Virus record (IMG/VR): IMGVR_UViG_3300043313_001220
Span: 1 to 64,000 of that record
Strand: one strand, 5' to 3'
Source: a virus
Length of the DNA stretch: 64,000 nucleotides
How positions within the stretch are numbered: the stretch's first letter is position 1; every line of letters begins with the position of its first letter. Below the pieces are notes generated by a model. That model was given only the letters and a program-made list of their open reading frames with translations. It made no database searches and had not been told where the DNA came from. This document shows, piece by piece, positions 1 to 53,339 of this stretch. Both the position numbers and the translations under genes were made by a program.

Positions 1-70
1 GCCAGCGGTGCCCGTCTCCGCGCCAGCGGTGCCCGTCTCCGCGCCAGCGGTGCCCGTCTCCGCGCCAGCG
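1..70 (+). repeat. 21-bp tandem repeat, three full copies plus 7 bp
   Basis: The 21-bp unit beginning GCCAGCGGTGCCC is repeated exactly three times (1-21, 22-42, 43-63) and a fourth copy breaks off after 7 bases. It lies inside the partial gene at the window edge and encodes the heptapeptide PAVPVSA in the gene's frame. Copy number may be higher, because the array runs off the left edge. Perfect identity of the copies suggests recent expansion by slippage. Confidence 0.9.
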
Positions 71-8968: not shown

Positions 8969-8998
8969 ATCCTACCGTCCTGACACGCGACGTGTCAA
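8969..8998 (-). promoter_or_regulatory. leftward promoter with 12-bp-period operator element
   Basis: Reading leftward: -35 TTGACA (8998-8993), 18-bp spacer, -10 TAGGAT (8974-8969). The -35 box is the second half of an 18-bp element at 8992-9009 (TGACAC ACCACT TGACAC), the motif that recurs at thirteen sites in the window. It drives the operon that starts at 8918. Confidence 0.72.
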
Positions 8999-23280: not shown

Positions 23281-24147
23281 ATGCGGGTCCCGTTCATCCC
23301 CTATATGCAAGGGCTCAACGACTACACCGACGGCGACAAGATCAAGTATGGATTGGCGTTCCACAACACCAGCAACGACGCCAGCGACACCGCGGAGGCG
23401 GACTGGGCCACCCGCCGCCCAGACGGCACCTCAGCACATGTCTACGTCGACGGAGACTCGGCCACCCAGTCGGTCGACACCGACGACAAGACCGGCCATG
23501 CGGGGTCGGCGCAGGGCAACGAGAACGCGATCAGCTTCGAGCTGACCGGCGCGAACGGCTGGACCCGGCAGCAGTGGCTGGCCAACATCGAATGGAACCT
23601 GCTCGGTCGGGTGGCCGCCGCGATCATCCGCCACCACTGGCCGGACGGCAGCTTCCAGGTCCGCCGTGTCTCGGTGGCCGAGATGAAGGCCAACCCGAAG
23701 ATCAAGGCGATATACGGCCACGACGACATGCGGTTGGCCTGGGGGGGCACCACCCACACCGATCCGGGGCCCGGGTTCCCCTGGGACCACCTCGTCGCCG
23801 TGATCAAGGCGGCACTCAACCAGACAGGAGAAAACGGCATGGCCTGGGAGCCGAAAGCACACGAGATTGTCAACCTGGTCCTCAACGGCAGCAGCGACAA
23901 GGGGTATGTCACTGGTGACGAGGCGCGTGACGCGGAGGCCGGATCGACCACGATCGCCCACACGGTCAACCTGCGCACAGTGATGCACAAGCTTGACCTG
24001 TTGCTCGCGCGACCGACTGCCAGTGTGGACGTCGAAGCGCTCGCGACTTCGCTGGCCGCGAAGCTGCCGCAGGGCCAGATCCCGCCGACCGCCCAGCAGA
24101 TCGCCGAGGCCGTCGCGGACGAAGAGCGCGACCGGATGCAGGACTGA
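23281..24147 (+). CDS. endolysin, N-acetylmuramoyl-L-alanine amidase
   Basis: A 288-residue protein. Residues about 1-180 form a peptidoglycan amidase domain of the Amidase_2/PGRP type: GLAFHNTSND (first zinc His at about residue 23), SAHVYVDGD, ENAISFELTG, IYGHDDMR and HTDPGPGFPWDHL (zinc His and catalytic region near residue 160). The C-terminal 100 residues are helical and may bind the wall or oligomerise. There is no signal peptide, so release needs the holin. No separate esterase for a mycomembrane is visible. Confidence 0.85.
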   Translation: MRVPFIPYMQGLNDYTDGDKIKYGLAFHNTSNDASDTAEADWATRRPDGTSAHVYVDGDSATQSVDTDDKTGHAGSAQGNENAISFELTGANGWTRQQWLANIEWNLLGRVAAAIIRHHWPDGSFQVRRVSVAEMKANPKIKAIYGHDDMRLAWGGTTHTDPGPGFPWDHLVAVIKAALNQTGENGMAWEPKAHEIVNLVLNGSSDKGYVTGDEARDAEAGSTTIAHTVNLRTVMHKLDLLLARPTASVDVEALATSLAAKLPQGQIPPTAQQIAEAVADEERDRMQD

Positions 24148-24151
24148 GCCG

Positions 24152-24481
24152 GTGACCGCCGCGAGCTTCCAGACCCCACCGCAACCCAACGGATATGTGT
24201 CCAACGAGATAATCGCCCTACAGCTGCGCCACCTGAGCGACTCGATGCATATGCTGCGGGATCAGGTGGTGGGCGAGTTGCACATGCTGCGGGCGGAGTC
24301 GGTCCGGGCCGATGTCTACACCGCCGAACGCAAGGCGGACCAGGCCGAGTTGAAAGCGATGAAGGACCAGATCGATCGGGCCGACAACCGCAAGTGGGTG
24401 TTGTGGGTGGCGGTCGCAACCGCAGTGATCGCCCTGGGGCGCGATCTGATCGGATCTCTACTCCAGGCGGGGTTGACGTGA
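24152..24481 (+). CDS. membrane protein of the lysis cassette
   Basis: A 109-residue protein with GTG start 4 bases after the endolysin stop. A coiled-coil region (about residues 25-80: LRHLSDSMHMLRDQVVGELHML in part, KADQAELKAMKDQIDRADN) precedes one membrane helix at about 83-105 (WVLWVAVATAVIALGRDLIG). One-helix proteins of this form occur next to holins in many actinophages; it may be a second holin or holin regulator. Confidence 0.6.
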   Translation: MTAASFQTPPQPNGYVSNEIIALQLRHLSDSMHMLRDQVVGELHMLRAESVRADVYTAERKADQAELKAMKDQIDRADNRKWVLWVAVATAVIALGRDLIGSLLQAGLT

Positions 24482-24735
24482 GCCAGTCGACGCAGGTGCG
24501 GTATCCGTGGCGTTCAACCATCCGGACGACGTTCCAGCTGGTGGTCGCGCTGGCCACCCTGCTGCCATATGTGTTCATCGGGGTTGACGTGCCGGTCGGG
24601 GGTGCGCTGGCGCAGGTGCTGGCGGCAGCAGCCGCGATCACCCGCGTGATGGCGATGCCCGAGGTGTCAACATTCCTGGAGCGGTTCGTACCTTGGCTCG
24701 CGCCTACCCCCGGTGCCAAAACCCCCACCGAATAG
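24478..24735 (+). CDS. holin
   Basis: An 85-residue protein coupled to the previous gene (GTGA). Two hydrophobic helices (about residues 17-36 and 42-62: TFQLVVALATLLPYVFIGV, GGALAQVLAAAAAITRVMAM) and the phrase TRVMAMPEV are typical of actinophage holins. It would open the membrane for the amidase. Last rightward gene before a terminator. Confidence 0.68.
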   Translation: MSQSTQVRYPWRSTIRTTFQLVVALATLLPYVFIGVDVPVGGALAQVLAAAAAITRVMAMPEVSTFLERFVPWLAPTPGAKTPTE

Positions 24736-24773
24736 CAGGAGACCGCCCCCGACAAAACGGAGGCGGTCTCCTG
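24736..24773. terminator. bidirectional hairpin terminator
   Basis: Inverted repeat 24736-24747 with 24762-24773 (CAGGAGACCGCC and complement), 12 bp plus further pairing in the loop, immediately after the holin stop. The convergent LPXTG gene ends 18 bases further, so it can serve both directions. Confidence 0.8.
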
Positions 24774-24791: not shown

Positions 24792-25661
24792 CTACTCCGC
24801 GCTGGTCAGGCCGTTCATCCGGCGGCGGTTCCAGACGGCCAGACCGCCGAGGACCAGGACGCCGAAGCCCAGCAGCAGCAGGGACGTCCACAGGATCGTG
24901 CCGGTCTTGGCACCGGTCAACGGCAGGGTGGCCGCAGCCGGGCTGGTGGACACCGCAGGTGCCGGGCTAGTGGACGCGCTCGGGCTGGCAGCGGGCGACG
25001 GGCATGCGACGCCACGGATGTCACCCGAGTTGCCGGTCAACGCGTTGACCCACTTCTCAGCGCCATCGGTACCGGCGCACCGGTTGTAGGCCCACGCCCA
25101 TTTGATCAGGTCCACATCGGCATACTTGCCGAACAGCTTGCCGAGGAACTGGCTGGTCGACCCGGTCAGCTCGCCGGAGACCGTGCCGCCGTTGTAGTCG
25201 TCGCCGGCCCAGGAACACCAGTGCGCGGGAGCGGTGATCTTGGCGGTCGCACCCCCGATGAACGTGCCGACAGCGTCCTTGATCAGCGATACGCCCGCGC
25301 CGGGCGACCCGACCGCGCTGTTGTTGGCGGTCTTGAACTGGCCGGAGTCGGTGACGACCGCGACGTACTCCCAGACGAGGTGGTCCTTCTTAACCACGTC
25401 GCACAGCACCTCCGGAGCGGTCTTGGCCACGCTGTCGTGCTCGTACTTCGCCTCGGTGGTCACCTCGATCTTGCGGGTGAACGTGTCCTTCGCCCAGACG
25501 GTCGGCGAGCCGGTGCCGCTGTCCGCCCGGTCGGTGATGGTCAGTTCGATGGCCGCCGAGGTGTCCATAGCGTTGGGGGCCGCCGATGCCGGCGCAGCTG
25601 CGGCAGCGGCGAGTGCCACCCCGAGCAGGGCCGCGATGACCCCCGTTACGATCTTCTTCAC
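24792..25661 (-). CDS. secreted surface protein with LPLTG sortase-type anchor
   Basis: A 289-residue protein. GTG start at 25661; signal peptide at residues 1-28 (KK, long Ala/Leu/Val core, cleavage near ASAA). The body has four Cys. Residues about 220-245 are a Ser/Pro/Ala linker. LPLTG at 246-250 is followed by a membrane helix (WTSLLLLGFGVLVLGGLAVW) and the basic tail NRRR, the full layout of a sortase-anchored wall protein. Phage products of this type are not virion parts; a role on the infected cell, such as masking a receptor, is possible (inference). It has its own promoter. Confidence 0.75.
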   Translation of the reverse strand: MKKIVTGVIAALLGVALAAAAAAPASAAPNAMDTSAAIELTITDRADSGTGSPTVWAKDTFTRKIEVTTEAKYEHDSVAKTAPEVLCDVVKKDHLVWEYVAVVTDSGQFKTANNSAVGSPGAGVSLIKDAVGTFIGGATAKITAPAHWCSWAGDDYNGGTVSGELTGSTSQFLGKLFGKYADVDLIKWAWAYNRCAGTDGAEKWVNALTGNSGDIRGVACPSPAASPSASTSPAPAVSTSPAAATLPLTGAKTGTILWTSLLLLGFGVLVLGGLAVWNRRRMNGLTSAE

Positions 25662-25719
25662 AGTTACTCCGTCTTGTCGTCGGTTCGTTCAGGTGGCCCG
25701 GCACGGTGCCGGGCCACCC

Positions 25720-25748
25720 AGCCTAACACCACACGTTCAGTGTGGCAA
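25720..25748 (-). promoter_or_regulatory. leftward promoter for the surface protein
   Basis: Reading leftward: -35 TTGCCA (25748-25743), 17-bp spacer, -10 TAGGCT (25725-25720). The -35 is part of the recurrent element 25742-25759 (TGACAC ACCGCT TGCCAC). The start GTG follows about 58 bases downstream. Confidence 0.7.
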
Positions 25749-25756
25749 GCGGTGTG

Positions 25757-25915
25757 TCAGACGCGGGCCAGAAACTCGGACACGCCGTAGTATGCCAGGT
25801 AGCCGAGGCCCCCCAATACCGTGCCCACCAGCGCGACGATCGAGAGCGCCTGCGTGAGGCAGCTGCCCTCACCGCCATCGTCCAGGATCTCGCCCTTCTT
25901 GAACGGGTTCCTCAT
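25757..25915 (-). CDS. 52-residue membrane protein
   Basis: ATG at 25915 overlaps the upstream stop (ATGA). A short charged N-terminus (RNPFKKGEILDDGG) is followed by a hydrophobic segment (ALSIVALVGTVLGGLGYLAYYG). Its stop codon lies inside the operator of the surface protein promoter. Function unknown. Confidence 0.55.
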   Translation of the reverse strand: MRNPFKKGEILDDGGEGSCLTQALSIVALVGTVLGGLGYLAYYGVSEFLARV

Positions 25916-28179: not shown

Positions 28180-29124
28180 TCACAACACGGTGGGGGCCTG
28201 TGGCGCACCATCATGCCGGGTGTGGGGCCGATCCTTGCGGCCGTAGAGCAGATATTCGATCGCACTCGCCCCACCGGAACCACCCGGGCCGCCCTTACCG
28301 AGCAGCTCCGCGATCCGGATGTACGACCACCCCAGGCGGATGCTGGCCTGCCGGGCGATCTCCCGCTGCACCGGCCGCGGGTAGTCCGCCGCTTTCCCCG
28401 GCCTGGGGTCGCGCAGTGCCCCATCGACCAGCTGGGACACCTCCACCCAATCGTCGGTGTCCGGCGGCGGCGGCAACGGCTGTACATCCGGGTCGTCGAT
28501 GTCCTCATCTGCCCAGCGTTCCGGACCCAACCACCCCCGGGCCAACGACTGCCGGGCGGTGGCATCGGACGGCCCCCGGGGGTCGGCCAACGATTGGATC
28601 TTGTCGTACAGCAGCCGGTACTTCTCATGCAGGGCGAAGACCAGCAGGGAACACCCGACAGCGAGGCGATGCCGCCGGATCATGCTGACGTTGACGCCGG
28701 TGAGGGCCGCGATCTCCTCGGTGCTCCAGCCATCGACCGCAAGAGCACGCAACCGCCGACTCGTACCGACCAGCGGGACCCAACTGGTCGGGCTGGCAGG
28801 CAGTGCCAGACAAGCCGCGGCGGTCACACCGAGCAGAGCCCCAGCCACCGGGCGGCTCAATCGGCGACCCGCGAGGAGCCTGCTGATCGAATGGCGACCC
28901 ACCCCCGCCACCGTGTTGATCCGGTCCCCGGTGACTCCGGGGACCTCCAACAACCCCCGGACGTGTCGGAGCACCGGCCCCAGCTCGTCATCCCCGAGCA
29001 CCGCACTATCCCAGACGCCCGCGGCTACCGCCGCCCGCCGGGTCTGCTGATGCCGGCGCGAACGGTCCCGGCACTCCGGGCAGCCCGCGGTGTAGTCCGT
29101 ATGGCCGTAGCAGTAGGCGCGCAT
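28180..29124 (-). CDS. DNA-binding protein with zinc ribbon and two helix-turn-helix parts
   Basis: A 314-residue protein; ATG overlaps the RuvC-like stop (TGATG). A short Cys/His cluster at the start (CYGHTDYTAGCPECRDRSR) looks like a zinc ribbon. Two helix-turn-helix-like segments follow, around INTVAGVGRHSISRLLAGRR (about 86-105) and WSTEEIAALTGVNVSMIRRH (about 150-169). The C-terminal part has another possible DNA-binding helix (ASIRLGWSYIRIAELLG). Proteins of this layout are common in actinophage early regions. Confidence 0.65.
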   Translation of the reverse strand: MRAYCYGHTDYTAGCPECRDRSRRHQQTRRAAVAAGVWDSAVLGDDELGPVLRHVRGLLEVPGVTGDRINTVAGVGRHSISRLLAGRRLSRPVAGALLGVTAAACLALPASPTSWVPLVGTSRRLRALAVDGWSTEEIAALTGVNVSMIRRHRLAVGCSLLVFALHEKYRLLYDKIQSLADPRGPSDATARQSLARGWLGPERWADEDIDDPDVQPLPPPPDTDDWVEVSQLVDGALRDPRPGKAADYPRPVQREIARQASIRLGWSYIRIAELLGKGGPGGSGGASAIEYLLYGRKDRPHTRHDGAPQAPTVL

Positions 29125-29735
29125 CAGGCCACCCACCGCAGATCGGTCGGCCACTGGACCGACGAGCGGTTCAGCCACGCCAACGCCTGCTTGTCGGGCA
29201 CCCGCCGCTGGCCGGTGAGCAGGTCCAATCCCATGGCCGCCAGCACGATGGCGTCGGATTCATCATCGTTGACCTTGCCATATTCGGGCCACAGCTCGGC
29301 AACCGCCGCCATGACCCGCGCCTTCTTCTTGTCGATCCCGCCGTTTCCCGTCGCATACCCCTTGAGGACGGGCGAGGGGACGATCGCGAACGGTATGCGC
29401 ACCTGTGCCAGACGGCTGACCACGTCGTGGTACAGCTGAATGCGTTCGACCAGGCCGCCGTAGCCACGGCTGACGTCGGGCGCTTCGATCACCACCAGAT
29501 CGGGCCGACGATATGGGGCACCCGTGGCGCGCATCTCATCCGTGGTCAGCAGCGACGTCTCGGCGATCTGGTGGCCGAGCCACATGATCTCGTCGACCCG
29601 ATCGGCCAACGGCAGCTTGGTGATGCCAGGTTTGCCGATCTTCGCAGTGCGCTTGACGAGCCCTGCGGTTGCGATGCCGGCACAGGTCAGACCGAGGTCT
29701 TCACCGACGATGTGGGGTTGTCGCTCAAGGTGCAT
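29124..29735 (-). CDS. RuvC-like Holliday junction resolvase
   Basis: A 203-residue protein. ATG 29735 behind GGAGA was chosen; the upstream extension is low-complexity leader. RNase H-fold acidic residues are visible: Asp13 in GEDLGLTCAGIA, Glu in LVVIEAPDVS (about residue 80), and the C-terminal DDESDAIVLAAMGL. KKKARVMAAV between them fits the basic helix of RuvC. It would resolve branched DNA before packaging. Confidence 0.7.
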   Translation of the reverse strand: MHLERQPHIVGEDLGLTCAGIATAGLVKRTAKIGKPGITKLPLADRVDEIMWLGHQIAETSLLTTDEMRATGAPYRRPDLVVIEAPDVSRGYGGLVERIQLYHDVVSRLAQVRIPFAIVPSPVLKGYATGNGGIDKKKARVMAAVAELWPEYGKVNDDESDAIVLAAMGLDLLTGQRRVPDKQALAWLNRSSVQWPTDLRWVA

Positions 29736-30175: not shown

Positions 30176-30922
30176 TCAGGCCGCCGCGACAGCCTTCTCC
30201 TTCTTACCCTCGCCGATCTGGTCCCACTGGGTGACGGTATACCGCCCGTAGCCCTGGCTGCGGCTGGCACCGATCCCCTGCTGGCCGCCGGTCACCCAAA
30301 TGGTCGCCCATTCTTTCTGGGTGAAGTCGTAATCGCTGATCACCGTGAACCCGACGACAGCGTCATCGACATACTCGGTGTACTGGATGCCGGTCTGGCG
30401 GGTGATCGGGTTGCGCGGGAACGACTGGAGGATGCCGGACGGCTCCAGGACCGCCTCGATCTTCTTCGTGTCCGCGCTGCGCTGGCCGACAAACAGCTTG
30501 TCCTCCAGCACGACGATGTGCTCGGCGATGAACGACAGCGTCCCCTTCTTGGTCGCGCCGTAACGCGCCGGGAGGTTGTCGACGGCGCGGGCGACCGACG
30601 CGGCCTCCTTCAGAGCGGCCTTCAGATGACGGCCTTCGATGTACAGGCCGTCCTGCGGGTCGCGCTTGAAGCCGTTCAGGTGGCGACGCTTGTCGACCTC
30701 CTTCAGCGCCTCATCCTCAGTGACACCGCGGGCGGCCATGACCTCGGCGACCGCCTGGGCGATGATGTCCTCCTTGTCGAGGCCCATCTTGCTCTTCAGC
30801 CAGCCCTCGGCGACCTTCGGGTCGGACGGGGTGCCGCCCATCAGTCGCTCGATCTGGATCTCTCCGGCGAACCGGAACGGGTAGACCCGGTTGATGTCAG
30901 CGGCGAACACATTCTTGGCCAT
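30176..30922 (-). CDS. RAMP-fold-like (Cas7-like) protein
   Basis: A 248-residue protein with ATG 30922 behind GAGAGGG. Features recalling the RAMP superfamily of CRISPR effector subunits: an early strand with IQIERLMGGTPSD, a GLYIEGRHLKAALKEAA motif (compare the PGSSLKG helix of Csm3/Cmr proteins), and a C-terminal Gly-rich loop GGQQGIGASRSQGYGRYTV. No Cas operon or CRISPR array is near. It could be an RNA-binding or virion-unrelated early protein. Assignment is by motif only and needs structure comparison. Confidence 0.45.
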   Translation of the reverse strand: MAKNVFAADINRVYPFRFAGEIQIERLMGGTPSDPKVAEGWLKSKMGLDKEDIIAQAVAEVMAARGVTEDEALKEVDKRRHLNGFKRDPQDGLYIEGRHLKAALKEAASVARAVDNLPARYGATKKGTLSFIAEHIVVLEDKLFVGQRSADTKKIEAVLEPSGILQSFPRNPITRQTGIQYTEYVDDAVVGFTVISDYDFTQKEWATIWVTGGQQGIGASRSQGYGRYTVTQWDQIGEGKKEKAVAAA

Positions 30923-30965
30923 CTGTGGCCCTCTCTGTGGTGTGGGTGGTGCGGTGTGCCCCAGA

Positions 30966-30994
30966 AGCATATCCCGTGGCACATGGGGTGTCAA
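30966..30994 (-). promoter_or_regulatory. leftward promoter for the RAMP-like gene
   Basis: Reading leftward: -35 TTGACA (30994-30989), 17-bp spacer, -10 TATGCT (30971-30966). The element 30988-31005 reads with one weaker half-site. The methyltransferase stop codon overlaps the -35 box. Confidence 0.7.
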
Positions 30995-31854
30995 GCAGTG
31001 TGTTGGTGGAGCCCAGCTCGGGCTAGCTGGCGCGGGTCGCCAACCCGCCAACGTGCGATCCGGCAGTAGTCGGCGGACAGGTCGACCGAGATGCCGACAC
31101 GTCCGAGGGCTTTCGCAGCCAGAGCTGTTGTGCCGCCCCCCCCCATCGGGTCCAGCACTACGCCGCCGGGCGGGCACCAGCCCTCAATGATGGCGAGCGG
31201 CCACTCCAACGGAAACGCTGAATGGTGCCGCACCCCGAGATACTCCGGCACGCGCAACGCCGCCGACTTGACCGCATGTACCGACCGCATTCCGGGAATG
31301 GATCGATCGGCCTTGCGGCTGGCATAATAATCGATTCGCTGGCTAAAGTGATACCAGGTCTCATGCGTGCGTGCCGCCCGGTCCCTGGCCGGATCGGGAA
31401 CCGCGTTCGGCTTATCCCAGATCACCTCCGCCCGCAAGGTTAATCTGAGATCATCCACACATGCGATGGCGTAGCGCTGGGGCAGCTGGAGCAGGCTTTT
31501 AGGACTGCCGGTCGGTACGCACCGGTTGTTGTGGCCGATGCCCTGCTTGCTGTTTGTGCCCGAGATAGTGGTGCGCGTACCGCGGCCGTATTTGTCGCCC
31601 AGATTGACCCACAATGACCCGCGCGGTTTGAGTACCCGCAGCCACTCCCGCGTGCACCGGACCAGGCTGTCAACATATTCGCCGGGGGTGGGCTCGGCCC
31701 CGACCTGGCCTTCGTAGACCTCGCCGCCATCCTCATAAGCGCGCAGCGACCAATATGGCGGGCTGGTGATGATCAAATCCACCGAGCCGGTGGTCAGGGG
31801 CAACGCACCCGCGTCACCCCTGACCACCAACGCCGATCCGGTCAACGGGCGCAC
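30991..31854 (-). CDS. DNA methyltransferase (N4-cytosine / N6-adenine type)
   Basis: A 287-residue protein with GTG start at 31854. Motif IV TSPPYW is at about residues 30-35 and the AdoMet motif DPMGGGGTTALAAKALGR is near the C-terminus (about 243-260), the beta-class order. A target recognition part lies between. It would methylate an exocyclic amino group in DNA, probably for protection against host nucleases. If adenine is replaced by diaminopurine, an adenine-N6 target would be affected; the target base is unknown. Confidence 0.8.
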   Translation of the reverse strand: MRPLTGSALVVRGDAGALPLTTGSVDLIITSPPYWSLRAYEDGGEVYEGQVGAEPTPGEYVDSLVRCTREWLRVLKPRGSLWVNLGDKYGRGTRTTISGTNSKQGIGHNNRCVPTGSPKSLLQLPQRYAIACVDDLRLTLRAEVIWDKPNAVPDPARDRAARTHETWYHFSQRIDYYASRKADRSIPGMRSVHAVKSAALRVPEYLGVRHHSAFPLEWPLAIIEGWCPPGGVVLDPMGGGGTTALAAKALGRVGISVDLSADYCRIARWRVGDPRQLARAGLHQHTA

Positions 31855-33275: not shown

Positions 33276-33876
33276 GCTGACGCTCCCGCTTCCTTTTCGT
33301 GTGGCTTTTGATGTCGTCACGCCCACACGCTCGACAGACGCGGTGACCGCGATAGATCCTCGTGTTCGTCTCATTCCAGGGGTGCCCCCTGGCGCAGTGC
33401 CCCTTGCGACGCCTGTTGCTAACTTGCACGCTGGCCGTAGCCCAGCGGCAGTTGTTGGGGCCATATCCGAGATCGTTGTTGATCCGGTCCAGCGACAGGT
33501 GGGGTGCGGGCCGCCGCCCCATGTCCACCAGGAAGGCCGAGAACCGCCCCCACCGGAGGCACACCGATATGCCGCGCCCCCCGTAGTTGTGGTAGTTCTT
33601 GTTCGTTGGGTTGGTACAGCGGTCCAGCATGGACCACCACGCGCGGTATTCGGGTGTTCCCCACATGCCGGCACGCGAGCCACGTTCGATAGCCAGCTCG
33701 TCATGCAGACACCCGCACGATTGTGTCACCCCCCAGCTACGACACAGAAGTAGACGCTCGGCCCCACAGTCGCATCGACACGCAATGCGGGGCTCATCGT
33801 TGTAGCGCGGTTTGGTCACCACCAAGCGACCAAACCGCACTCCCACCTCGTGAGTGACCACGACCCCTCGACTCAT
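33262..33876 (-). CDS. HNH homing endonuclease
   Basis: A 204-residue protein; ATG overlaps the gp3-like stop (ATGA). N-terminal zinc-like Cys (CRCDCGAERLLLCRSW), then the phage HNH core EYRAWWSMLDRCTNPTNK, YGGRGISVCLRWG and HLSLDRINNDLGYGPNNCRW, and a C-terminal Cys pair (CRACG). It is a free-standing homing nuclease placed between two replication genes. Confidence 0.8.
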   Translation of the reverse strand: MSRGVVVTHEVGVRFGRLVVTKPRYNDEPRIACRCDCGAERLLLCRSWGVTQSCGCLHDELAIERGSRAGMWGTPEYRAWWSMLDRCTNPTNKNYHNYGGRGISVCLRWGRFSAFLVDMGRRPAPHLSLDRINNDLGYGPNNCRWATASVQVSNRRRKGHCARGHPWNETNTRIYRGHRVCRACGRDDIKSHTKRKRERQHELV

Positions 33877-35219
33877 CGCAGTTTGGCCGCCAATGCCTGC
33901 ATCTGTGCGACGGTGGCCAGCTGCCGGTCGACCCTGAACTCTTCGTGCAGCATCCGGTCGATGTCGGCGGTTTTAAGCTTTTTCATCCCCGCCGCCCCAA
34001 GCAGCTGCATCATCGCATCCTTGCGCGCCTGTGGGTCGTCGGTGGCCGCGATCTGCTCCTCCGGCTCACCGTCCTCCCACGGCGCGCTGACCGCCGGCAG
34101 GGTCGTCGACGCCTCTGGAGTGGCCTCCGGGTCAGCGGGAGGGTCGAGCAGGGCCTCGGATTCCCCCGGGTCCTCCTGCCAAGCTTCCTGGACATCCAGG
34201 CGGGCGTCACGGGCCTTCTTCGTATCGATCCGGGCCTGCGCCCGCTGGGCCTCCGACTCCTGCGTGCGCTGGGCGGTCAGCACCTGCTGGCGGGCCTGCC
34301 AGGCGTCGATCAGCTGCTGGTGGTCGCCGGTCTCCTTGATCCTCTTGCGGATCCCAGCCATCTCCGCGTTGGTCGTGGCCTTCGCGATCGCCTCCAGCGC
34401 CTTCGGGATGTTGGGGGCGGGAGGCACGGGGGGCACGGGGGGCACGGGAGGCACGGGAGGCACGGTGGCCGGAGCCGCCTCGATTGCCGTGGCGCGGGAG
34501 GGTTCGATGGCCGCCCGCATGGCAGCAGCCTGCTGGTCGCGGCCAAGCTGCAACACGGTGCTGACCGCGTCTGAGCCGACCTGCACCGTTCGGGAGGTCA
34601 CCCCGTCTAACAACAGGATCGGCACGTTGTAATCTTTGGTGACCACTTTTCTCTCTTTGCGGTCGTATTGGCGGGACTCGCGGTTCTCCAGCAACAAGCG
34701 GGCGGGCAACGGCATGCGGATGCCCGCGATCATGTCGAACAGCTGGACCATCTCGCCGGCCGCATAATACCCATGGGTCTCAAGCCCCCACACACCCAGG
34801 CCCGGCACGTCGGCCAAAAGCAAATCGACCCGGGTGGTCGGCTTACATCTCCGAGTTTCCGGGTCGCAGTCACAAGTGTCCCCATAGATCTGGTCCTGAA
34901 CGCCGTCACAGCGGCGGCTGCACACGCCACCCGACCACAGCTCGTATGTCGGGTCAACAATCTGGGGAGGGATGAAGACTGGAATCAGCGCCGCATCGGT
35001 CACCACCTGCCACTGCTTGCCCCGGGGGGCGTCCGCCCATACCTCCATCTCTCCACCGTAGAGCGCTGCCACCTCTTCCACGAGGTGCTGGGCCGCACTT
35101 GTAAAGCGCAGAGTATCCAACCGGCTGGGCCGTTCCTTGCCCGAGCTGGTCTTGACCTTGCGGCCCAGCCGGATGCGGCCCACCCGTACTGAGCGGATCT
35201 GGAGGTCTCGAATGGCCAT
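33873..35219 (-). CDS. phiC31 gp3-like protein (recombination directionality factor family)
   Basis: A 448-residue protein, ATG 35219 behind AAGGAG. The first 280 residues match the pattern remembered for phiC31 gp3: IRDLQIRSVRVGRIRLGRKV, ALYGGEMEVW, YELWSGGVCSRRCDGV, CDCDPETRRCKPTTRV and VPGLGVWGLETHGYYAAGEM. In phiC31, gp3 switches the serine integrase to excision. Here no integrase is visible; homologues in other phages are thought to have a replication-linked role. A VPP-repeat linker at about residues 250-270 joins a charged C-terminal helix-rich part. Confidence 0.62.
   Translation of the reverse strand: MAIRDLQIRSVRVGRIRLGRKVKTSSGKERPSRLDTLRFTSAAQHLVEEVAALYGGEMEVWADAPRGKQWQVVTDAALIPVFIPPQIVDPTYELWSGGVCSRRCDGVQDQIYGDTCDCDPETRRCKPTTRVDLLLADVPGLGVWGLETHGYYAAGEMVQLFDMIAGIRMPLPARLLLENRESRQYDRKERKVVTKDYNVPILLLDGVTSRTVQVGSDAVSTVLQLGRDQQAAAMRAAIEPSRATAIEAAPATVPPVPPVPPVPPVPPAPNIPKALEAIAKATTNAEMAGIRKRIKETGDHQQLIDAWQARQQVLTAQRTQESEAQRAQARIDTKKARDARLDVQEAWQEDPGESEALLDPPADPEATPEASTTLPAVSAPWEDGEPEEQIAATDDPQARKDAMMQLLGAAGMKKLKTADIDRMLHEEFRVDRQLATVAQMQALAAKLR
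34423..34467 (-). repeat. five 9-bp tandem repeats encoding Val-Pro-Pro
   Basis: Five units of GGCACGGGG or close variants on the plus strand (34423-34431, 34432-34440, 34441-34449, 34450-34458, 34459-34467) encode a VPP linker in the gp3-like protein. Likely a length-variable hinge. Confidence 0.85.
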
Positions 35220-35757
35220 CCCATTGCTCCTTCTTCTCGGTGTAGTCAATGAAGCGCTCCCGGTGGCGCTCAAAGCGCCCCAGGAGCCGATTGCAAGGTG
35301 TGCACAGGACGCCCCTGACGCACTTACCGCACGTGCGCTTACCCGGACAGCAGCTGTGATCGTGGTCGACCGGGAATCGCGGGGCCCCGGGTTCCCCGCT
35401 CGACATCTCGCCACAGATCGCACAGCCGCCACCCTGCGCGGCCAGCAACGCATCGTAGTCCTCGGGGGTCAGGCCATATCGCCTCAGTGTGATCCGCCGG
35501 CTGAGGGCCACCCGACGCTCTTGGTTCGTAATAGCCCACGCGCGCTGAGTGGCCGCCCTGCGCTCCGGGTTCGCGGCCCTCCATGCGCGGTTGGTGGCCG
35601 CTACGCGCTCCAGATTTGCGGTTGCCCATGCGCGGTGGGTGGCTGCGCGACATGCCCTACATTGGGACTCCAGCCCGTCCCGACCGGTCTTGCGCTTGGA
35701 AAACCCCCCGAGCCCCTTCGTCTCCCCGCACTTGCTACAGCGTTTCGTCTCTTCCAT
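34954..35757 (-). CDS. endonuclease VII-like HNH protein, 3' part overlapping the next gene
   Basis: ATG 35757 behind AGGAGG. Residues 1-180 are a complete recombination endonuclease VII-type protein: CSKCGETKGLGGFSKR, three 15-residue repeats of type RAWxxxNxERRAAT, RYGLTPEDYDALLAAQGGGCAICG and PVDHDHSCCPGKRTCGKCVRGVLC..CN. After EKKEQWDGH (near 35219) the frame runs on for about 88 codons inside the gp3-like gene, giving low-complexity sequence. The natural stop seems to be lost. Overlap is 266 bases. Confidence 0.7.
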   Translation of the reverse strand: MEETKRCSKCGETKGLGGFSKRKTGRDGLESQCRACRAATHRAWATANLERVAATNRAWRAANPERRAATQRAWAITNQERRVALSRRITLRRYGLTPEDYDALLAAQGGGCAICGEMSSGEPGAPRFPVDHDHSCCPGKRTCGKCVRGVLCTPCNRLLGRFERHRERFIDYTEKKEQWDGHSRPPDPLSTGGPHPAGPQGQDQLGQGTAQPVGYSALYKCGPAPRGRGGSALRWRDGGMGGRPPGQAVAGGDRCGADSSLHPSPDC

Positions 35758-41734: not shown

Positions 41735-42193
41735 ATGGCCACCTGTGTCAACGGACACGTTGACCCACCCCGTTACAAGAACGCCACCTGCAAGCGGTGC
41801 GCAATAGAGAAAGCGGACGCCTACCGGAAAGCCAATCCAGAGAAAAAGCGAATCCGCGAGGCCAAAAGGGCCCGAATCAAGAGGCGAGAGGACCGACATG
41901 CCGCGCTGGCTGCCTATGGTGGTGTCTGTGCCTGCTGTGGGGAGCACCGAGAGCCGTTTCTGGTGCTCGACCACATCAACGGCGATGGCGCGGAACACCG
42001 CCGCATGATGCAACCCAATGCCGGACCCCATGCGCCTGCCGGCTATCGTACTTACCAGTGGCTACGCTTGCGTGGGTACCCACCCGGCCTGCAAGTGTTG
42101 TGCGCCAACTGCAACATGGCCAAAGAACGCGGCATCTGCCCGCACCAAGAAGGAAGTGAGACCCCCCGTGGGATTGCTGCAAGTCATAGTTGA
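41735..42193 (+). CDS. HNH homing endonuclease 1 of a three-member family
   Basis: A 152-residue protein. Zinc pairs CVNGH..CKRCA (start) and CACCG, core EPFLVLDHINGDGAEHRRMM, then LRLRGYPPGLQVLCANCNMAKERGICPHQ. Two further genes in the window (44244-44879 and 58593-59084) share YGGxCxCCGE..FLxxDHIxGxG..GYPxGxQxLCxxCN..G.CPHQ. It overlaps the start of purZ by 26 bases. The Lys-rich middle contrasts with its neighbours. Confidence 0.82.
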   Translation: MATCVNGHVDPPRYKNATCKRCAIEKADAYRKANPEKKRIREAKRARIKRREDRHAALAAYGGVCACCGEHREPFLVLDHINGDGAEHRRMMQPNAGPHAPAGYRTYQWLRLRGYPPGLQVLCANCNMAKERGICPHQEGSETPRGIAASHS

Positions 42194-43241
42194 TGGTCAA
42201 TTCGGATCGTCCGGCAAGGGCGCTGTGGCGGCACACCTGGCACGCCAAGAGCACAAGAGCGGGCGACACGTCGCCGCTGTGCGGGTGGGGGGGCCAAATG
42301 CGGGTCACTCCGCCTGTGACGACAGCGGGGTCAAGTGGGCCCTGCGTCAAATTCCGGTGGCCGTGGTGGCGGACCCGAACGCCCAGCTCTACATCGCCGC
42401 CGGGTCCGAGGTGGACCTGGAGGTGCTGTGTGACGAGGCTGAACGGCTCGAAGCCGCTGGTCACAAGGTCTACGACCGCCTCGTCATCGACCGGATGGCG
42501 ACCGTGCTGGAGCCCCGGCACCGTGAGCAGGAGGGCGCGTTCAACCTGAACGAGCGGATCGGCAGCACGGCCAAAGGCATCGGTGCAGCCCGGTCCGAAC
42601 GAATCTGGCGGACCGCCCGGGTCGTCCGCGATTTGGCCGACGACATCGAAGACGACCGGATCACCTCGTTCGCCGTCGGGAGCGTCGCGGCAGCGCTCCG
42701 CAACCATCTCGCCCAGGGCGGGACGGCCCAAGTCGAGTGTTCGCAGGGCTTCGGCCTGAGCCTCTACCACGAGTTCTACCCCCAGGTCACCTCCAGCGAC
42801 ACCACCACGCTCGGGTTCCTCTCGATGGCCGGGGTCGCCCCCTGGGATAAGGCCGTGACCGACTTCGAGGTCTGGGTGACCCTGCGTCCGAATCCGATCA
42901 GAGTCGCCGGGGCCAGCGGCCCGCTGCTCGGGGAGACCACCTGGGAGGCCCTGGGGCTCGCCGAAGAGAAGACCACGGTCACCCAGCGGGTGCGGCGGGT
43001 CGGCGTTTGGGACCCGCAGTTGGCCCGGGACGCGATCGCCGCCAACGGCGGGGCAGGATTCAATGACACCGTCCGGATCGCCCTGATGATGCTCGACTAT
43101 GTGGACCCCTCGGTCGCCGGGGTCACCGAAGCCAGCGCGCTGACCGACAAGGCCATCGAGTTTATCCACATGGTCCAGAAAGACGCCGGGTCGTATGTCC
43201 GGCTGGCTGGGACGTCTGACCGCACGGCGATCGAACTGTGA
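42168..43241 (+). CDS. purZ: PurZ, adenylosuccinate synthetase-like enzyme of diaminopurine synthesis
   Basis: A 357-residue protein, shorter than cellular PurA (about 430). GTG start at 42168 after AAGGAAGTGAG. The N-terminal P-loop reads VDGQFGSSGKGA: Ser14 stands where PurA has its catalytic Asp (WGDEGKG), a hallmark described for phage PurZ. GPNAGHSA, TAKGIGAARSERI, SQGFGLSL and NDTVRIALM are other family blocks. PurZ joins dGMP and aspartate to give ADAM-dGMP-type succino intermediate for 2,6-diaminopurine. It lies between two HNH genes, with the MazZ-like gene 170 bases downstream. Confidence 0.85.
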   Translation: MGLLQVIVDGQFGSSGKGAVAAHLARQEHKSGRHVAAVRVGGPNAGHSACDDSGVKWALRQIPVAVVADPNAQLYIAAGSEVDLEVLCDEAERLEAAGHKVYDRLVIDRMATVLEPRHREQEGAFNLNERIGSTAKGIGAARSERIWRTARVVRDLADDIEDDRITSFAVGSVAAALRNHLAQGGTAQVECSQGFGLSLYHEFYPQVTSSDTTTLGFLSMAGVAPWDKAVTDFEVWVTLRPNPIRVAGASGPLLGETTWEALGLAEEKTTVTQRVRRVGVWDPQLARDAIAANGGAGFNDTVRIALMMLDYVDPSVAGVTEASALTDKAIEFIHMVQKDAGSYVRLAGTSDRTAIEL

Positions 43242-51872: not shown

Positions 51873-53339
51873 ATGGACAGGCGATACGAGAGTGCCGATG
51901 TCACAGCGATCTGGAGCGACCAGGGCCGCAACCTGGTCGAACGCAGCATCTGGGTCGAGGTGATGCGAGCCCAGCGCGAAGCCGGAATCGACATCCCGGA
52001 AGACCAGATCGACGCGTACGCCGACCTGGCAGCCAGCCAGGCACTGCTGGACCCGGACCACGAGGAAGCCCTGCTCGAAACGCAGGACATCGCCGAGCTG
52101 GAGAGAGAGACCAAACATGACCTGTACGCCCGACTGCGGTGGTTCAACGAGAGTGTCGGAGGCGACCACGCCCACCGCGGGTTGACCTCGGCCGACATCA
52201 CCGAGAACACCCAGCAGATCCAGATCGTCGCCTCCGCCGAACTGCTGCTAGAACACGCTGAGCAGGTCCTGCGCCGGATGTACGAGCGTGCCGGGGTGTT
52301 CGCCACGGTGCCGATCGTCGCCCGCACCCATGGCCGACCCGCGCAGCTGACCACCATTGGCAAGCGGATCACCGACTGGATGCAGGAGCTGATGGGGGCG
52401 ATGGTCACTCTCCAGGGGGCCATCGAAGGTTACGTGCCGCGGGGGATCAAAGGCGCGGTCGGCACCAGTGCCGACATGGCGCGGACGTTGCTGTCCGGCC
52501 TGCCGGAGGGCAGCCCCGCCAGCAGGTGGGTGGCCGCCCGCCTGGCCGCCGGCACGCTGGACGACCGGGTGTCGTCCAAGCTGGCAGGCGAGACCACATC
52601 GATGCTGTCGACCGGGCAGTGTTACCCACGCTCGGCCGACCTGCCGATCATCTCCGCGACGTTGCAGCTCGCCGCCGCGTGCGGCACGGTCGCCACTGCC
52701 GTGCGGCTGATGTCCGCGCTCGGCCTGGCGGTCGAGAACCCCGACGCGCATGTCGGGTCGTCGGCCATGCCCCACAAGAGCAACCCGCGCTACAGCGAGC
52801 GGGTCTGCAGCCTCCAGGTGGTCGCACGCGGGTATGCGGGAATGTTGCAGGAGACCGCCGGCACGCAGTGGCTGGAAGGTGACGTGTCGACCTCTGCGGC
52901 CCGCCGGATCGCCCTGCCGGGGCTATTCCACACGGTGGATTCGATGCTGGCCAACACCGCCTGGGTGTTGGACCATCTGGTGTTCGACCTGGAGGCGATC
53001 AAGGACGAGCGCGACCTGTGGATGCCGGAGATGGCATCCGGCGCGCTGTTGGCCGCACTGGTCGAGAACGGGGTGCCACGTCAGAAGGCACACGAGGTAC
53101 TGCGGCACCATTATCGGCAGATCGGCGGCCCGGACTGCGAGAGCGACCGATCGGGGACGCTGATCTACCACCTGACCAGTGAAGACGCAGAGTTCCGGCT
53201 GACTGCGGAGCAGACCCAGGCCGCGTTCGACCCGGAGATGTTGGTTGGTTCTGCGGTGGCGATCGTGGAGGCTGTGGTCGGTGCGGAGCTCGGCGAGCTG
53301 CTGGATGCCGACCCGGAATGGCCTGGCGACCTGGTGTGA
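51873..53339 (+). CDS. purB: PurB, adenylosuccinate lyase
   Basis: A 488-residue protein of the fumarase/aspartase superfamily with adenylosuccinate lyase blocks: KHDLYARLRWF (81-91), HRGLTSADITEN (101-112), ARTHGRPAQLT (150-160; His153), and GSSAMPHKSNP (295-305), the family signature. It removes fumarate from succino-nucleotides. In the pathway proposed here it finishes dZMP synthesis after PurZ. Host PurB can do this in known Z phages, so a phage copy is notable. It is preceded by a very long leader. Confidence 0.9.
   Translation: MDRRYESADVTAIWSDQGRNLVERSIWVEVMRAQREAGIDIPEDQIDAYADLAASQALLDPDHEEALLETQDIAELERETKHDLYARLRWFNESVGGDHAHRGLTSADITENTQQIQIVASAELLLEHAEQVLRRMYERAGVFATVPIVARTHGRPAQLTTIGKRITDWMQELMGAMVTLQGAIEGYVPRGIKGAVGTSADMARTLLSGLPEGSPASRWVAARLAAGTLDDRVSSKLAGETTSMLSTGQCYPRSADLPIISATLQLAAACGTVATAVRLMSALGLAVENPDAHVGSSAMPHKSNPRYSERVCSLQVVARGYAGMLQETAGTQWLEGDVSTSAARRIALPGLFHTVDSMLANTAWVLDHLVFDLEAIKDERDLWMPEMASGALLAALVENGVPRQKAHEVLRHHYRQIGGPDCESDRSGTLIYHLTSEDAEFRLTAEQTQAAFDPEMLVGSAVAIVEAVVGAELGELLDADPEWPGDLV

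Follow-up and report, generated by a model that had tools for sequence, protein, structure and literature searches.

Features of the locus and its phage

The leftward gene at 24792–25661 raises the question of what a phage would gain from a cell-wall protein encoded next to its lysis genes. A preliminary description of the locus had read the product as displayed on the infected host, and had named receptor masking, superinfection exclusion and altered host adhesion as possible roles. The window (the whole stretch of DNA analysed, 64,000 bases) comprises bases 1–64,000 of a viral record of 94,374 bases (G000), which represents a virus known only from metagenome assembly. Both ends of this record are located inside one 20-base tandem repeat, GCCAGCGGTGCCCGTCTCCGC (window 1–66 and L003:10305–10374), a hint that the genome is complete and circularly permuted; the ends may join within a coding gene. 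The terminase shares about 60% identity with its counterparts in Actinoplanes phage phiAsp2 and Streptomyces phage TurkishDelight; matches to phiAsp2 extend to the portal, capsid and tail genes, so that the host is likely to be a soil actinobacterium of the Micromonosporaceae type. With the endolysin as search anchor, no related phages were found.

No tyrosine integrase was found in G000, in phiAsp2 or in the phage represented by contig L067 (see below), while the same search was positive in TurkishDelight and in contig L068. The search for a serine integrase was negative in all five records tested, including G000 and phiAsp2. A match to Gp3-like recombination directionality factors (PF18897, E 4e-35) is present at 33876–35453 of this genome without detected tyrosine or serine integrase. 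The window also carries an adenylosuccinate synthetase-like gene (42018–43241; PF00709, E 8e-34) and an adenylosuccinate lyase-like gene (51873–53339; PF00206/PF10397), a pair that may indicate genome modification (2-aminoadenine).

Table 1. Coordinates of the surface-protein gene, its control elements and its neighbours in the window.
Feature	Position	Strand	Basis or remark
Coding sequence, sortase-substrate surface protein, 289 aa	24792..25661	-	ORF, translation and homologues
Shine-Dalgarno sequence GGAG	25667..25670	-	sequence; 5 nt before the GTG start
Signal peptide, residues 1–28	25578..25661	-	sequence; rule-based test
Exported family domain, residues 29–222 (domain about 30–222)	24996..25577	-	W.W.Y..C and GDI.G..CP motifs; AlphaFold2 model mostly beta
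Ser/Pro/Ala-rich wall-spanning linker, residues 223–245	24927..24995	-	sequence
LPLTG sorting motif, residues 246–250	24912..24926	-	sequence; rule-based test
Membrane helix (256–277) and NRRR tail (278–289)	24795..24896	-	sequence; hydropathy
Regulon operator/-35 block TGACACACCGCTTGCCAC, TGnCAC direct repeat	25742..25759	-	overlaps the stop of the upstream gene
Promoter: -35 TTGCCA (25748–25743), 17-nt spacer, extended -10 TGT-TAGGCT (25725–25720)	25720..25748	-	sequence and promoter family
14-bp hairpin, probable two-way terminator	24738..24771	.	region -47.5 kcal/mol, z -6.1; between lysis operon and surface-protein gene
Neighbour: endolysin (amidase type)	23281..24147	+	annotation of neighbourhood
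Neighbour: holin-like ORF, true start internal	23993..24481	+	phrog_689, E 0.0024
Neighbour: small membrane protein	24475..24735	+	phrog_4316

A phage protein with a complete sorting signal

The gene starts with GTG and has a third-position GC content of 0.89, and its reading frame is kept in homologues, which provides independent support for coding; together with the Shine-Dalgarno sequence, this confirms the leftward gene as real. All the signals described earlier, i.e. the signal peptide, LPLTG motif, membrane helix and basic tail, can be read in the translation. The signal peptide combines a KK n-region with an Ala-rich hydrophobic core and ends ASA/A, and LPLTG is followed by a hydrophobic helix of 22 residues and then by NRRRMNGLTSAE. 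Both the export signal and the sorting signal were recognised by rule-based tests. Pfam gave no anchor match and the score of the NCBIfam anchor stayed under its cut-off; the Pfam anchor cut-off is passed by just one of the four LPXTG proteins of the phiAsp2-group phages. Exactly one ORF in the 64-kb window has both a sorting signal and a signal peptide in the rule-based test, namely 24792–25661. Across 60 shuffled versions of the window (first-order Markov), counting ORFs of at least 100 residues, a mean of 0.05 ORFs had a sorting signal and none had a signal peptide as well; on these figures a chance ORF was rejected.

No sortase gene was found in G000 or in five related phage records, and six candidate-host genomes encode 3–7 sortases each, so that export and wall attachment would likely be performed by the host machinery. 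The combination of a complete sorting signal, LPXTG-anchored homologues carried by host chromosomes and by other contigs of mobile elements, host sortases and no phage sortase gives good support to the earlier reading of a phage-encoded, sortase-anchored surface protein. On these grounds, it is very probable that the product is exposed on the cell wall of the infected host.

Expression unit and promoter family

The surface-protein gene forms a one-gene unit and follows small leftward genes in head-to-tail order. The block at 25759–25742 is a perfect match to the motif TGACACnCnGCTTGnCAC, for which 12 sites (with at most 2 mismatches) are present in the window, compared to 0.19 expected, and the regulon promoter ascribed to this gene in the preliminary description is thereby confirmed. 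Several of these sites run on into a -10 hexamer, followed by a gene start. On either strand, the sites precede non-structural genes; the tail-to-lysis main operon (about 13.3–24.7 kb) contains none of the 12. The family, with its TGnCAC direct repeat overlapping the -35 element, spans window positions 8992–59099 (e.g. 25742, 27932, 36556 and 50567), and further sites of this type occur in G000 outside the window at about 74.3, 75.5 and 91.0 kb. This phage-wide distribution suggests that a single regulator serves the non-structural genes of both strands. A candidate for this regulator is the product of 28180–29178, which matches phrog_1590, has a weak sigma-70 region 4 signal (PF08281, under cut-off) and adjoins an XRE-type regulator. 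We infer that this promoter class is early.

The lysis genes do adjoin the surface-protein gene, as described before, but the latter converges on them and is separated from them by a strong hairpin, and thus is no member of the lysis operon: it adjoins the lysis genes, yet falls in another regulatory class. The promoter data give no support to late expression with virion association, one of the observations that had been named as refuting the earlier reading. The alternative of a virion or tail protein was rejected in view of the promoter class and the anchor.

A domain family shared with Micromonosporaceae and other viral contigs

Single-protein searches of Pfam, NCBIfam, PHROGs and the PDB returned nothing for the 289-residue protein; the NCBIfam entry EF0750_LPXTG (E 0.022) touches the tail only. 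Neither tblastn with the window protein or a host homologue as query against 50,697 phage and 72,556 plasmid records, nor tblastn with the viral relative L071 against the phage records, gave a meaningful match, and degenerate-pattern scans with the single window protein yielded no relatives. Relatives were obtained by chained searches, and were reached only once a first bacterial homologue (L052) was known. This protein, encoded in genome G341, was the one full-length homologue of the exported domain among 355 Micromonosporaceae genomes (E 1.1e-6 within one genome; E 7e-13 in a pairwise comparison). With L052 as query, four more homologues were found, bringing the chromosomal members of the family (here called family B) to five of the 355 genomes (G341, G151, G018, G019 and G016). 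No homologue was found in a phylum-wide sample of 397 genomes, and a class-level sample of 395 genomes gave two partial, weak matches.

A search of the viral collection with the enlarged alignment identified family B on six other viral contigs. Two of these relatives end in an LPVTG anchor, i.e. L067, on a viral contig of 92 kb (34% identity to the window protein, E 4e-16), and L090, whose contig is possibly another kind of mobile element. The other four are secreted without an anchor: L068, and L070, L071 and L080, which have an extra C-terminal domain. The window domain carries the family signature W.W.Y..C and G(D/N)I.G..CP; conserved positions include W160 and/or W162, Y164, C167, G185, I187 and G189. 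Few genomes and viral contigs matched, and no isolated phage or plasmid record did; judged by these searches, family B is a small, undescribed family, spread over bacteria and mobile elements.

All five chromosomal proteins are sortase-anchored, and they share with the window protein the signal peptide, the domain with W.W.Y..C and G(D/N)ITG..CP motifs, the Ser/Pro linker and the RRR tail. They differ in their anchoring motif (LPVTG, or LADTG in one), and the window protein is about 28–36% identical to the directly found member. The neighbourhoods consist of ordinary chromosomal genes in all four that were read (of five), without a visible prophage, whereas the copy in the window has diverged much further, is encoded in a phage and is driven by a phage promoter. 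The L067 protein (IMGVR 3300045391_004297) is LPVTG-anchored and has the stretches TITDRxDSGT and WAKDTFTRK in common with the window protein, but an additional domain, with a weak Ig-like signal, follows at its C terminus, and the two phages share little else. The leftward gene at window positions 30176–31069 is about 50% identical to L067:9968–10855, and lies a few kb from the anchored surface-protein gene in both phages. A tree of 12 domains puts the phage copies at two or more positions, but is too deep to tell which way transfer went.

An AlphaFold2 model of the window domain, built from six sequences, is of moderate quality (pLDDT 70, pTM 0.69) and predicts mainly antiparallel beta structure with a short helical part. 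This model had no meaningful match among PDB chains, and a weak viral match, to a Harvfovirus protein (E 0.015, TM 0.45–0.48), was not relied on. The model of L071 was poor, and the structure search from it was meaningless.

Parallel LPXTG proteins in phiAsp2-like phages

A search in related phages had been proposed as a check. LPXTG proteins were found in the phiAsp2 group, under a promoter family of their own; their ectodomains are unrelated to that of the window protein. In four records of this group an LPXTG protein is encoded directly upstream of the terminase; that of phiAsp2 is Pas57, annotated by product name only. When the related contigs were scanned in six frames, sorting signals were found in these phage surface-protein genes only. 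Three of these four proteins have a GWYVNPDE domain in common (family A), and the fourth (L004:8174–9046), in the same terminase-adjacent place, has a Pro/Gly-rich ectodomain and an LPKTG motif. Family A extends to ten viral records and three Paractinoplanes contigs; its members include L015:48342–49259, L033, L034, L006, L012, L036–L038, L040 and L041, several of them encoded just upstream of a terminase. The promoter TTGACCACCTCCCCG-N6-CTGTAAGGT precedes several of these genes, being exact in four, and weaker copies occur elsewhere in some of those phages.

The window protein was not found to belong to the Pas57 family: a profile comparison with family A (hhalign) gave a probability of 0.05%, and no LPXTG gene is present at the terminase of the window phage. 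The likeness lies in the type of protein, sortase-anchored and encoded in related phages under a phage-type promoter; the ectodomains are unrelated and pas57 lies upstream of the terminase genes. Since phiAsp2 and its kin have an unrelated LPXTG protein, anchored surface proteins recur in these phages with exchangeable ectodomain and position. A wider proposal, which we consider rather doubtful, is that Micromonosporaceae phages have a swappable slot for a sortase-anchored protein, with a phage-specific promoter and a GWYVNPDE, Pro/Gly-rich or window ectodomain, by which lytic phages would covalently re-coat the infected wall to control adsorption, also to debris.

Possible roles of the predicted wall-anchored protein

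The window protein most likely changes what is able to attach to the infected cell. The best explanation as a whole, in which our confidence falls just short of even, is that a host-sortase-anchored phage protein of the non-structural promoter class prevents adsorption, both to the infected cell and to wall fragments. Transcription of the gene would begin along with that of the non-structural genes, from the common phage-specific promoter, and would either precede that of the structural and lysis operon or be independent of it; the host Sec pathway would export the protein, and the host's own sortase would fix it to the peptidoglycan. There, the beta-rich domain would occupy or hide the surface component used for phage adsorption, such that the infected cell stops capturing phage particles. 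After lysis, wall fragments with the covalently held protein would likewise no longer capture particles, a role for which a covalent wall anchor would be suited. The adsorption-blocking role for infected cell and debris, taken by itself, is proposed by analogy and is slightly more tentative. This explanation is weakened by the four viral contigs in which the domain is secreted without an anchor, which fits receptor masking less obviously, by the window domain having no structural match, and by the chromosomal homologues, which imply some ordinary host role, so that host morphology or adhesion could be what the phage copy affects.

The latter would be the case if a host sortase-anchored protein had been taken over to change aggregation or the hyphal or spore surface, helping spread or persistence with adsorption unaffected. 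We consider this unlikely. The homologues are indeed monocistronic chromosomal genes in ordinary contexts, and sortase substrates of A. missouriensis shape sporangia and surface growth (PMC13251363), which argues for such a role, but changing the development of a dying cell is of little benefit to a lytic phage, and no integrase was detected.

Alternatively, expression from a resident phage genome could protect a carrier or lysogenic cell from related phages, as surface-exposed proteins of Gram-positive temperate phages do (Ltp of TP-J34, PMC3952083). The Gp3-like match and the XRE-type regulator in G000 are in line with this, as is the carrier state without integration proposed for a C. acnes phage (PMC11480721). 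Neither a tyrosine nor a serine integrase was found in G000, however, and the promoter is shared with many other non-structural genes and not with a recognised immunity region, which makes this reading improbable. Adsorption blocking in the lytic cycle is favoured over lysogenic exclusion because the promoter is of the non-structural class, no integrase was detected, and anchored surface proteins recur in phages that likewise have no detected integrase; the lytic-cycle role thus appears the more likely of the two. Equally improbable is a secreted domain with a ligand outside the cell (a glycan, a toxin or the tail of a competing phage), whether released or anchored, with the anchor being incidental: the domain does occur without an anchor, with another C-terminal domain and with LPXTG, but no ligand-binding family was recognised in it and every bacterial chromosomal copy seen is anchored.

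Relation to known exclusion proteins and meaning

The known phage surface proteins that control adsorption are mainly lipoproteins and membrane proteins. The window protein has no lipobox Cys at the signal-peptide cleavage region, and therefore is no member of the Llp or Ltp type, but only a possible functional analogue. The lipoprotein Llp of the lytic phage T5 stops secondary infection and the loss of particles on debris (PMC9586334), and the window protein may be its wall-anchored counterpart: each would be a lytic-phage product kept in the cell envelope that shields infected cells and debris from adsorption. Llp differs in being lipid-anchored, periplasmic, Gram-negative and FhuA-specific, and no sequence relation is claimed. 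Ltp of Streptococcus thermophilus phage TP-J34 is likewise phage-encoded and exposed on the surface of a Gram-positive host, but is a lipoprotein of a temperate phage, has other domains and exerts its effect on DNA injection via the tape measure protein.

Phage-made surface proteins as such are already known. We found no description of sortase-anchored surface proteins in actinophages in the open-access literature, most subscription papers being outside this scope; the actinophage version thus seems undescribed there, which is not proof of its absence. If the proposed role is correct, phages in which no integrase was detected would have a new, covalent and host-sortase-dependent route to the control of adsorption, and the host sortase would become a named factor in phage ecology. 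The idea is testable, as sortase deletion strains of Actinoplanes missouriensis exist and the isolated Actinoplanes phage phiAsp2 has the parallel gene pas57. It also provides first functional guesses for two undescribed protein families.
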